Shown piece after piece: positions 20,013 to 25,512 of a DNA stretch of 36,973 nucleotides (the first letter of the stretch is position 1; each line of letters begins with the position of its first letter). The notes below the pieces were generated by a model. It was not told the DNA's origin. It did no database searches and saw nothing but the letters and a program-made list of their open reading frames with translations. Source of the stretch: Deltaproteobacteria bacterium (GTDB lineage: Bacteria > Desulfobacterota > DSM-4660 > Desulfatiglandales > Desulfatiglandaceae); NCBI GenBank assembly GCA_019307945.1, contig JAFDIS010000027.1, positions 10,684 through 47,656 of the forward strand. The letters are read 5' to 3'. The translations under genes and the position numbers were made by a program.

Positions 20013-20618
20013 TCAAAGAGTGATCACCGAGTCTGACAACTGCATGGCCGTCACGATGTCCAGCATGTTGGTGGTCTCACCCACCTTCTTCTCGTTCAGC
20101 AGGTCGTAGTGTGTAAGACATGTGCCGCATACCAGGATCGTGACGCCGGCCTCCTCCAGGTCCTTGAGATCGTCCAGGACCCGCGAGTCGGATATGCTCA
20201 GCTTCACGCCGCTGTTGATTAAGACCAGGCGCCAGAGTTCTTCTCCCATCTCCTTGAGAGTTTTGATGAAACTGTCCATGAGCTTAGCACCCAGTTCATC
20301 GTCCCCTTGCCCCATTCGATCCGTTGCCACGAGGACCATGATCTTCTTGTGGTGCGCTTCCTTATCAGGTTCTTCCGGCACCGGACTTTTCGGGCCGCCC
20401 GATCTCAAAACTCCCCTGACGTGAAAGAGGCTTCCGGCCTCCTCCACGTAGACTTCGAAACCCTGGGATGCCAGAAAGCGGGATACATTTTGCTTGCCCG
20501 CTTCGTTGTCTACCGTGACCCGGATTTCGTCCGGGTGTTCTTGTTCGATCCGCTCCTTTGTCTGAAGCACCGGGGCCGGGCAGGCCAGCCCGCGGCAGTC
20601 CAGTTCAGTTGCCCCCAT
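20013..20618 (-). CDS. yedF: YedF, selenium-metabolism sulfurtransferase-like protein
   Basis: A 201-residue protein with two parts. Residues 1-~75 are TusA/SirA-like with DCRGLACPAPVL (Cys13 in CPxP). Residues ~110-200 are DsrE-like with GTCLTHYDLLNEKKVG near the C-terminus. This two-domain form is the YedF family found in selenium-utilising bacteria, usually beside selD and yedE; a role in selenium trafficking is suspected, not proven. ATG 20618 was chosen over an upstream frame start because AAGGAGG sits 10 nt before it and the TusA domain begins there. It is 67 nt downstream of selD and probably in one transcript. Confidence 0.88.
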   Translation of the reverse strand: MGATELDCRGLACPAPVLQTKERIEQEHPDEIRVTVDNEAGKQNVSRFLASQGFEVYVEEAGSLFHVRGVLRSGGPKSPVPEEPDKEAHHKKIMVLVATDRMGQGDDELGAKLMDSFIKTLKEMGEELWRLVLINSGVKLSISDSRVLDDLKDLEEAGVTILVCGTCLTHYDLLNEKKVGETTNMLDIVTAMQLSDSVITL

Positions 20619-20685: not shown

Positions 20686-21735
20686 CTAGGATACGTCGAT
20701 CCTGCCCTTTGGTTCCTCGGAGACCTCACCGATGATTGAGGCTTGACGTACCCCCCGCTTCAGTAGGGCCGACAGCAGGTCTTCGGCGGCCCTGGAGGCA
20801 ACGCAAATAAGCAAGCCTCCCGAGGTCTGGGGATCGAAAAGAAGATCCCGCAAAACGCCGTCCACGGAGATTCCGAAGTCCACCATGCCCTCTCGAAATT
20901 CCCTGTTCTTGAATGCGCCTGCCGGAAAGAGGCCCATCCTCCCGTATTCCGCGGCGCCGGGCAGCAAGGGAATGTCCCGTGTGCGGAGCCTTACTCCGAG
21001 GCCTGTGCCCTCGACCATCTCGGCCAGGTGGCCCAGAAGCCCGAAGCCGGTCACGTCCGTACAGGCGTGGACCGGATAGGCCGCCATGACCTCCGCAGCG
21101 GTTCGGTTCAATTCCGCCATCAGGCGGACGGCCCCTTCGGCATTTTCGCCCGAGGCAATGCCGCCCTTGACCGCTGTGTTGATGACCCCGGTTCCCAGGG
21201 GCTTTGTGAGGATGAGGCAATCGCCCAGGCGAAGATCCTTTTTGGTGAGGATGCGGTCCGGATGGACCAGCCCCGTAACGGAGAGTCCGTACTTGAGTTC
21301 GTCGTCTTCCACGCTGTGGCCCCCCACCAGCACCACGTCGGCCTCCTTCAGCTTTTCAAGACCCCCTTGAATGATCCGCCTCAAGACCTCCAGGGGCATC
21401 TTGCCCAGAGGGAAGGCCACGAGGTTCATGGCGGTCTTGGGGACCCCACCCATGGCGTAAACATCGCTCAGGGCGTTGGCCGCAGCGATTTGTCCGAACC
21501 GGAAGGGGTCGTCCACCACGGGCGTGAAAAAATCCACTGTCTGGATAAGGGCGAGGTCCTCCGTCACCCGATAAACCCCCGCGTCGTCGGCACGATCCAG
21601 GCCAACGAGGAGGTTCGGGTCAGAGGGAAATTCCAGCCCGCAAAGCGCCCGGTCCAGGTCCCCTGGAGGCAGCTTCGAGGCTCAGCCCGCCCCTTTCACC
21701 GTTTCCGTCAATCGCCTTCCGTTCATTTTGTCCAT
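20686..21735 (-). CDS. selD: Selenide, water dikinase containing selenocysteine (Sec18)
   Basis: SelD makes selenophosphate from selenide and ATP for Sec and selenouridine synthesis. A standard ORF starts only at GTG 21567, but the frame continues upstream through one TGA (21684-21682). Upstream of it comes the family's N-terminus: TETVKGAG-U-ASKLPPGDLD, then DPNLLVGLDRADDAGVYRV. The UGA sits at residue 18, exactly where the catalytic Cys/Sec of SelD belongs, three residues before Lys21. ATG 21735 with GAGGGAG upstream gives 349 residues, normal for SelD. Downstream motifs include VDFFTPVVDDP, ANALSDVYAMGG and GGHSVEDDE. It is divergent from the DsrE-like gene and upstream of yedF. Confidence 0.93.
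21653..21684 (-). promoter_or_regulatory. Sec UGA and candidate bacterial SECIS of selD
   Basis: After the UGA (21684-21682) the mRNA can form a 6-bp stem TCCAGG/CCTGGA (21667-21662 with 21658-21653) with loop GGA. The loop begins about 20 nt after the UGA, inside the distance range known for bacterial SECIS elements, and starts with G as the SelB-binding model requires. The stem is short. The hairpin is seen; its function is inferred. Confidence 0.6.
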
Positions 21736-21797
21736 ATCCGTTCTCTCCCTCTTATCAAGATTTTATAGGCTAAAGCAGTGTGGCGTGATTTACAAAC

Positions 21798-21826
21798 AGG
21801 AAATTCCTATGACAAAAACGTGTCAT
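21798..21826. promoter_or_regulatory. Adjacent palindromes between selD and dsrE
   Basis: AGGAAATTCCT (21798-21808, 5-1-5) lies directly beside ATGACAAAAACGTGTCAT (21809-21826, 6-6-6). The latter has the ATGA-N10-TCAT form also seen upstream of yedE. They sit in the divergent promoter region and are candidate operators, possibly for the LysR protein at 24508-25452. Confidence 0.4.
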
Positions 21827-21901
21827 TTAGGGAAAACCTATGGTAAATAAGTCGGGTCGCGGCGGCAGCCCCCGGACTGGGAGAGTTTCGGGGCTCGTCG
21901 G

Positions 21902-21917
21902 TTAGGATTCATCCTAA
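21902..21917 (+). promoter_or_regulatory. Perfect 7-2-7 palindrome before the DsrE-like gene
   Basis: TTAGGATTCATCCTAA ends 25 bp upstream of the ATG at 21943. A perfect 16-bp dyad at this distance could be an operator or a leader hairpin near the ribosome-binding site. Function inferred. Confidence 0.35.
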
Positions 21918-21942
21918 TATTCGGTAGATTGGAGGCGTCGAC

Positions 21943-22254
21943 ATGAAAGTCCTGATGATCATTTCCACTGACGACGGGGAGACCATCTATAACGCCATGC
22001 GTCTGGCCAATGTGGGCGTGGCCAAAGGGGACGAGGTAAGCGTCTTCATGCTGGGCAAAGGCGTGCTTTTCGAGCAAAGCGGGGACGAGGAATTCAATGT
22101 GATGGGAGAGATGGAACGGTTCGAAGGCGACTTTTATGTCTGAGGCGTCTGCATGAAATCCCACGGTCTCGCGGGATCAAGCACGTGCCCCATCGGTTGG
22201 ATGGACGATCTCTATGAACTGGCAAAGGAGGCGGACAAGGTCCTGACTTTCTGA
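21943..22254 (+). CDS. DsrE-like selenoprotein with in-frame UGA (Sec67)
   Basis: Without recoding the frame stops at 66 residues, but it continues in frame past TGA 22141-22143 to TGA 22252-22254, giving 103 residues. The N-terminal half (MKVLMIISTDDGETIYNAMR, then GDEVSVFMLGKGV) is DsrE/F-like. The joined region reads GDFYV-U-GVCMKSHG, followed by GSSTCPIGWMDDLYELAKEA and VLTF. Cysteine relatives have CGVC at this site, so Sec replaces the first cysteine of a CxxC redox pair (Sec67/Cys70). DsrE-fold proteins carry sulfur in relay reactions; the selenium version would be a more reactive redox or carrier site. TGGAGG 8 nt before the ATG supports the start. It is divergent from selD. Confidence 0.87.
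22158..22177 (+). promoter_or_regulatory. Candidate bacterial SECIS of the DsrE-like gene
   Basis: Downstream of UGA 22141-22143 the RNA forms ATCCC/GGGAT (22158-22162 with 22173-22177), an A-C mismatch, then CG/CG closing a GUCU loop at 22166-22169. The loop starts 22 nt after the UGA, begins with G and contains U, closely recalling the SelB-binding apex of known bacterial SECIS elements. Structure seen, function inferred. Confidence 0.7.
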
Positions 22255-22258
22255 AGAG

Positions 22259-22301
22259 GGGGCGGGTTGCGAGGCCCATTGTTGGAGTCCTTTCCCGCCC
22301 C
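22259..22301 (+). terminator. Probable terminator after the DsrE-like gene
   Basis: GGGGCGGG (22259-22266) pairs perfectly with CCCGCCCC (22294-22301), followed by TGGTTTTGTC. It sits 5 nt after the stop codon and before the convergent B12-binding gene. The 27-nt loop lowers confidence. Confidence 0.45.
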
Positions 22302-22309
22302 TGGTTTTG

Positions 22310-22711
22310 TCAACGGGGGTTTTGGGGGAAACACGCAGAAACGTACCGGACGATGCGCTCGAGGGGCGTTCCCGGACCGAAGACTTCGGCAATTCCGGCT
22401 TCTTTCAGGCGCGGTACATCCGGGGGAGGCACGGTACCGCCCAGGATCACGGTCCTGTGTCCGCCCCCTTTACTTCGAAGGGCGTTGACCACCCGTGGTG
22501 CGAGCTCCATGTGGTTTCCGGAGAGGCTGCTCAGGCCCACGACGTCGGCATCTTCCTGAAGAGCGGTCTCCGCGATGGTCTCCGGATCCTGGTTGCCCAC
22601 GTAGATCACTTCCATGCCCGCATCCCTGAGGGCGCGGGCCACCATGATGCTTCCCCGCCAGTGGGAATCGAGTCCCAGCCTCGCCATCACCACACGAATT
22701 TTTCTGGTCAT
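22310..22711 (-). CDS. B12-binding subunit of an acyl-CoA mutase
   Basis: A 133-residue cobalamin-binding (Rossmann-like) domain of the methylmalonyl-CoA mutase C-terminal type, encoded as a separate protein. The base-off/His-on motif DxHxxG is present as DSHWRG (His17 ligates cobalt); the usual form is DGHDRG. LSSLSGNH and GGTVPPPDV complete the pocket for the nucleotide tail. It lies 52 nt downstream of the large subunit, as in two-gene mutases (isobutyryl- and 2-hydroxyisobutyryl-CoA types), and must pair with it to form the adenosylcobalamin holoenzyme. The gene converges on the DsrE-like gene. Confidence 0.85.
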   Translation of the reverse strand: MTRKIRVVMARLGLDSHWRGSIMVARALRDAGMEVIYVGNQDPETIAETALQEDADVVGLSSLSGNHMELAPRVVNALRSKGGGHRTVILGGTVPPPDVPRLKEAGIAEVFGPGTPLERIVRYVSACFPQNPR

Positions 22712-24507: not shown

Positions 24508-25452
24508 CTACCGCTCTTTCTCCGCCGAGGCCAGGAGAAAATCCAGCAAGGCCCGGCAGAGGGGTGAAGCGATCCTCCGGCGGTCGCGGACAAGGTGGAA
24601 ACTCCGGACCAGGCGCAGGCCCCGGATGCGAAGCGCCTTGAGCATGCCCGTCTTGAGTTCCGTGTCAAGGGCCCGGGCGGAAAGGATGGAAATGCCGAGC
24701 CCCGCCTTTATGCCCTCTTTCACGGCCGTGGAAGTGCCCAGTTCGGCCACCCGATTCAGGGACTCCAGGCCGAATGAACCGTCTCTCTTCAGGAATTCCT
24801 CCAGGATCTTGAATGTCCCCGAGCCTTCCTCGCGAAAGATGAAAGGTTGTGTGGGCAACTCTGCCAGATCCACCTCTGCTCGAGAGGCCCAGGGGTGTTC
24901 GGCTGGTATCGCCAGGACCAGTTCGTCTTTCCAGAGTTCATTGGAGATCAGGGAGCGGTGGCGGGCAGGCGAGCCCACCACACCCAGTTCAAGGGCGCCT
25001 TCCAGGACCGAGGTACGAATTTGTTCCGAGTCCGAAATGGAAAGAGTGACGGACACTGAGGGGTATTTCTCCCTGAATTCGCCGATGAGGCGAGGCAGGA
25101 TGTATTCACCCGGGATAGTGCTGCCCCCCAGGCTCACACGACCCTTCCTCGTCCCCAGGAATTCCTGCATCTCGAGGCAGGCGGTCTCTTTCATTTCCAG
25201 CAGCAATACTGCATGCTTGTAAAGGATTTCTCCCGCCTTTGTGGGGATCACCCGCCTCCCCATCCGATCCAGGAGACGGGTTCCCACCATGGTTTCGAGG
25301 GTGGCTATTCGTTCGCTTACCGATGGCTGGGCCAGGTACACTGCCTTGGCGGCCTTGGAGAAGCTGGAGAGTTCCACCACCTTGCGAAAGATCTCCAGTT
25401 GCCTGAGATCGAAATCCACGCTGGGGAAAGGCGGGCGTTTGGATTGGGCCAT
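24508..25452 (-). CDS. LysR-type regulator, selenium-metabolism-associated type
   Basis: A 314-residue LysR regulator. The N-terminal winged helix-turn-helix is clear (LRQLEIFRKVVELSSFSKAA, then AQPSVSERIATLE and GTRLLDRMGRR). The effector domain follows from ~95 (GSTIPGEYILPRLIGEF, REEGSGTF, GLGISILS). It resembles the LysR subgroup that accompanies selenium genes in Desulfobacterota and clostridia; the neighbours selD and yedF agree. ATG 25452 is chosen over the frame start at 25503 because AAGGA precedes it and the HTH begins soon after. The likely targets are the palindromes at 1888-1905 and 21809-21826. The effector is unknown. Confidence 0.85.
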   Translation of the reverse strand: MAQSKRPPFPSVDFDLRQLEIFRKVVELSSFSKAAKAVYLAQPSVSERIATLETMVGTRLLDRMGRRVIPTKAGEILYKHAVLLLEMKETACLEMQEFLGTRKGRVSLGGSTIPGEYILPRLIGEFREKYPSVSVTLSISDSEQIRTSVLEGALELGVVGSPARHRSLISNELWKDELVLAIPAEHPWASRAEVDLAELPTQPFIFREEGSGTFKILEEFLKRDGSFGLESLNRVAELGTSTAVKEGIKAGLGISILSARALDTELKTGMLKALRIRGLRLVRSFHLVRDRRRIASPLCRALLDFLLASAEKER

Positions 25453-25512
25453 GGGTCGGTCCTTGCCGTATCGGGTGAGCGGAGGGCACATCCTCCGCGG
25501 CACAAGTGGTGG

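Follow-up and report, generated by a model that had tools for sequence, protein, structure and literature searches.

Does the TGA codon within a short DsrE-like reading frame mark a broken gene, an altered code or a selenocysteine (Sec), and, if the last, what does the product do? These questions are raised by positions 21943–22254 (+ strand) of the window, the stretch of 36,973 nucleotides analysed here. The gene opens with ATG at 21943 and closes with TGA at 22252–22254, spanning 103 codons, with a further TGA at codon 67 (22141–22143); these coordinates, frame and codons are as a first-pass annotation had given them. Under translation table 11 the region yields only a 66-aa ORF (21943–22143), so that ordinary gene calling cuts the gene at 66 residues, as had been anticipated. 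Read through, the product is 103 aa long and has the form MKVLMIISTDDGETIYNAMRLANVGV...GDFYV-U-GVCMKSHGLAGSSTCPIGWMDDLYELAKEADKVLTF, with Sec67 leading a UGVC (UxxC) motif. Pfam model PF02635 (DsrE) spans residues 1–103 of this product (E = 1.1e-10; 42.1 bits against a cut-off of 22.7), bearing out the earlier DsrE-like assignment along the whole read-through sequence, and no NCBIfam model matched the 103-aa product at E 1e-3. A putative ribosome-binding site, GGAGG, could be read from the sequence directly 5′ of the start codon (21928–21942, + strand), and purine-rich boxes also lie upstream of the gene in most relatives.

Scanning 84,980 species genomes, we found 80 relatives with 61–87% identity, nearly all of them named Desulfobacterota or Deltaproteobacteria. 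Cultured carriers of the gene include Desulfosarcina widdelii PP31 (L060) and Desulfoferrobacter suflitae (L030). TGA occupied codon 67 in 79 of the 80; the sole exception (locus L093) carried TGG there plus another in-frame stop, and looks like a decayed or misread copy. Sampling the phylum (297 drawn genomes) and the family yielded further TGA-bearing orthologues. The first-pass annotation had set beforehand that a Cys homologue should align a cysteine to residue 67 across the UGA, and this was found: distant homologues without an in-frame stop had TGC or TGT exactly at codon 67 in all seven distinct cases. Codons 84–103, which lie 3′ of both the TGA and the hairpin described below, showed a pN/pS of 0.10, indicating strong selection on the protein, and translation must therefore pass the TGA. 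A nonsense mutation or sequencing error, leaving either a DsrE pseudogene in decay or a pair of separate short ORFs, would account for the stop at codon 67 under table 11, and L093 shows that single decayed or misread copies exist; this explanation is nevertheless refuted by retention of the codon in 79 of 80 independent assemblies across genera and families, is further opposed by the downstream selection and by the presence of Sec machinery, and retains a negligible probability.

The genome, 98.5% complete, encodes the Sec machinery that the same annotation had proposed to look for: selA (612 bits), selB (383.5 bits) and a tRNA-Sec (73 bits, with anticodon tca according to ARAGORN). It also has selD, which lies in the window at 20686–21735 (− strand; TIGR00476, 379 bits) and is itself a Sec-SelD gene with an in-frame TGA at 21682–21684 (GAG[U]ASK), a point missed in the first pass; the plain ORF list starts selD late, at 21567. 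We spotted this TGA by eye and not with the window-wide filter for TGA read-through candidates, which produced 149 unvetted matches. Two further selenium-associated genes are found nearby on the − strand, namely yedF, encoding TusA and DsrE domains (20013–20618; TIGR03527, 216.7 bits), and a selenium metabolism-associated LysR regulator gene (24508–25503; NF040786, 277 bits against a cut-off of 250), the latter located beyond the methylmalonyl-CoA mutase genes. Together, selD, yedF and the LysR gene form a selenium cluster around the DsrE selenoprotein gene. If TGA encoded Trp or some other standard amino acid in this host, the TGG of one relative would make sense, but the terminal stop of the very same gene is TGA, which refutes reassignment; the aligned residue is Cys and not Trp in all Cys homologues, the gene has a SECIS hairpin and the genome has selABCD, so we give this reading virtually no chance. 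On comparative sequence evidence, the in-frame TGA at 22141–22143 almost certainly specifies Sec, and the earlier reading of a UxxC selenoprotein is supported by the relatives, the Cys homologues and the Sec machinery alike.

The recoding signal lies inside the coding region. A bacterial SECIS-type hairpin, AUCCCaCGGUCUCGcGGGAU (22158–22177, + strand), starts 14 nt 3′ of the UGA, and its G-rich apical loop begins approximately 22 nt past that codon, which is where a hairpin had originally been noted. Folded singly it reached −9.0 kcal/mol (z = −2.3), a modest stability on its own. Neither an Rfam scan of window positions 21500–22400 nor RNAalifold on the orthologue alignment gave a match or a consensus structure, the RNAalifold result, a weak point of the case, probably because the stem is short and has one mismatch; after it, we counted pairs on the named hairpin structure instead. 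Across 37 sequences, 87% of cells paired, a share that none of 500 shuffles reached, and one stem pair showed a two-sided compensatory change from U-A to G-C or G-U in eight sequences. Synonymous variation was depressed over the same codons: among 75 full-length orthologues the synonymous entropy ratio was 0.34 in codons 72–79 versus 0.91 before and 0.92 after them (Mann–Whitney p = 1.5e-5), and pS fell to 0.23 in these codons versus 0.83–0.90 outside. Genes with the Sec codon folded with a mean MFE of −8.8 in the main branch and −12.2 in the other TGA-bearing homologues, while Cys homologues lacked the hairpin (mean MFE −3.7, z = 0.06). Comparison across orthologues thus places the hairpin far beyond chance, and synonymous constraint together with absence from Cys homologues confirms it as real. 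Taking these lines together, we consider it very likely that 21943–22254 is a genuine selenoprotein gene with a DsrE/YchN-type fold, a judgement that concerns gene and fold and leaves the substrate aside.

An AlphaFold2 model built from 37 window and locus sequences had a pLDDT of 94.6. Its structural matches were DsrE-like 3mc3 (VIA Z 15.6), YchN 1jx7 (14.8), 3pnx (13.7) and TusBCD (12.9), with TusBCD and DsrEFH subunits at approximately 13, and the predicted fold is DsrE/YchN/TusD-like. Searching the PDB by sequence returned zero matches with a narrow profile, and YchN (E 7e-8) with a broader family profile. In the profile alignment residue 67 falls on the first Cys of the CKTC motif of YchN, and in the predicted fold Sec67 sits at the junction of a strand (63–67) and a helix (68–73); Cys82 is also conserved in the DsrE selenoprotein. 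A. vinosum DsrE binds sulfur at Cys78 and passes it on, and its authors propose this cysteine as the superfamily's active site (PMC3397948); in the type II DsrEFH of sulfate reducers Cys67 has the same sulfur-carrying role (PMC13293266). From the YchN alignment and the predicted fold, we infer that Sec67 occupies the sulfur-carrying cysteine position of the superfamily.

DsrE-like selenoproteins are a known kind, since UxxC members of pfam02635 were reported from the Sargasso Sea in 2005 (PMC1088965) and from Desulfovibrio vulgaris in 2006 (PMC1794560) and, including WP_014524487.1, also appear in reviews; any surprise is accordingly moderate. Compared by description only, the protein resembles these in its PF02635 domain, in having Sec first in UxxC and in a bacterial SECIS downstream, although the published proteins may lie in another group, as our tree contains at least two Sec groups. 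E. coli YchN shares the fold, and its CKTC aligns on UGVC, but it has Cys instead of Sec and only 22% identity in the structural alignment. Likewise, the DsrEFH/TusBCD complexes and type II DsrEFH (PMC13293266) have the same fold and probably the same position of the sulfur-carrying residue, whereas the gene described here stands alone, without F and H (or B and C) partners, and has Sec for Cys within a UxxC motif. It is also distinct from YedF, as the 103-aa product has no TIGR03527 match and the true YedF is encoded nearby (20013–20618). TsoX HSGNPxU (NF045809) is a small UxxC selenoprotein too, but of another family.

In the tree, Sec rows fell into two well-supported groups set apart by Cys rows, forcing at least two changes: the clade containing the window sequence (support 100/99) and another (99/97) that includes one Cys row. 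The groups also differ in motif, one having UGVC with the third Cys and the other UGKC or UGKL without it. The same genome harbours a second, distant DsrE gene on another contig (C40), with TGA at the aligned position in a UIPC motif (L151:1445–1447), and this TGA is kept in four relatives with 78–84% identity. On these sequence data, the sulfur residue of the superfamily seems to have been recoded to Sec repeatedly in these bacteria. What is new here is a branch, widespread among relatives of sulfate reducers, in which Sec is almost universal, which no NCBIfam model covers and whose gene lies directly 3′ of tsoX in 12 relatives; with no such model, standard annotation likely calls a 66-aa fragment or misses the gene. 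Elsewhere among the loci, one genome has DsrE-like genes of both types, Sec and Cys, next to each other (L128:2662–3332, − strand; L128 and L121), and L142 has two nearby DsrE-like frames (40–348 and 501–803, − strand) with TGA at the aligned position in both, in ULTC and UGAC motifs.

The immediate neighbours in the window are the divergent selD, whose orientation had been described correctly, and the convergent methylmalonyl-CoA mutase genes; neither dsrF nor dsrH was found beside the gene there. Since selD was near the gene in only three of 100 relative loci, two of which represent one contig, its adjacency is not evidence of function, and we dropped the linkage as a functional clue. In 12 relatives a TsoX-type selenoprotein gene (NF045809, 145 bits) lies directly upstream; the two genes are 14–22 nt apart except in L062, where the gap is 195 nt. 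Pairs such as those at L032:3733–3984 and L050:3732–3986 place two selenoprotein genes side by side; in L147 only a fragment of TsoX reads through, and the TsoX of L053 has an extra stop. A search of the host genome for TsoX gave zero matches, as did the control in the same search. ArsR-type regulator genes occurred within 1.5 kb in 20 of the 100 loci and ArsP-type permease genes near five, while TrmO, CoA-disulfide-reductase-like oxidoreductase, thioredoxin reductase and TauE genes were nearby in a few. Given this diversity, gene neighbourhoods lend weak support to any one biochemical role.

Gene structure, selection, SECIS, Sec machinery and fold come from computation, and from here on substrate, partner and reaction are inferred. 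In the mechanism we propose, SelB and tRNA-Sec would decode UGA codon 67 as Sec under direction of the in-frame SECIS hairpin, and Sec67 would replace the sulfur-carrying cysteine of a single-domain DsrE/YchN-fold protein. Sec67 would take up sulfane sulfur, or else sulfur or selenium in an oxidised form; Cys70 may act as the resolving partner of the UxxC motif, closing a Se–S bond with Sec67, with Cys82 perhaps serving as a third redox residue, and the thioredoxin system would then recycle the protein. We see about an even chance that the protein is a small cytoplasmic sulfur/selenium carrier or reductase working through Sec67 and Cys70. DsrC and DsrA are encoded in the same genome, which fits a role in sulfur transfer without proving one.

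Two other assignments accept UGA as Sec and differ in the job given to the protein. It could handle metals or metalloids, with Sec67, Cys70 and Cys82 binding a soft metal in place of sulfur transfer; the ArsR-type and ArsP-type neighbours point this way, and a 2026 review implicates several selenoproteins in Hg and As resistance (PMC13188914), but most loci have neither neighbour, the window places the gene among selD, yedF and methylmalonyl-CoA mutase genes, and the fold is that of a sulfur carrier, making this role unlikely. Alternatively, it could serve selenium metabolism, either by bringing reduced Se to SelD as a carrier or by protecting SelD. Its position divergent from Sec-selD, with yedF and the Se-linked LysR gene near, would suit such a function, as would the DsrE-like domain found in YedF, a protein linked to Se metabolism (PMC5322559); with selD near in so few relatives the link is not general, and we hold this to be quite improbable. 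Returning to the sulfur/selenium carrier, a broader picture can be put forward tentatively, and we think it somewhat more apt to fail than to hold: that a near-obligate Sec branch of DsrE is widespread in Desulfobacterota, was recoded more than once (UGVC, UGKC and UIPC, two of these types in one genome), and functions as a selenopersulfide-type S/Se carrier together with the thioredoxin-like TsoX. For 20 years, lists of selenoproteins have included DsrE-like members with no function assigned to them. The pairing with TsoX, combined with Sec at the residue aligned with the CxxC cysteine of the superfamily, turns this into a testable question, namely whether selenium takes part in cytoplasmic sulfur transfer in relatives of sulfate reducers.

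Finally, a perfect palindrome, TTAGGATTCATCCTAA (21902–21917), lies 41 nt 5′ of the start codon. It was sought in the relatives and is not common to them; judged from its sequence, it is a possible operator.
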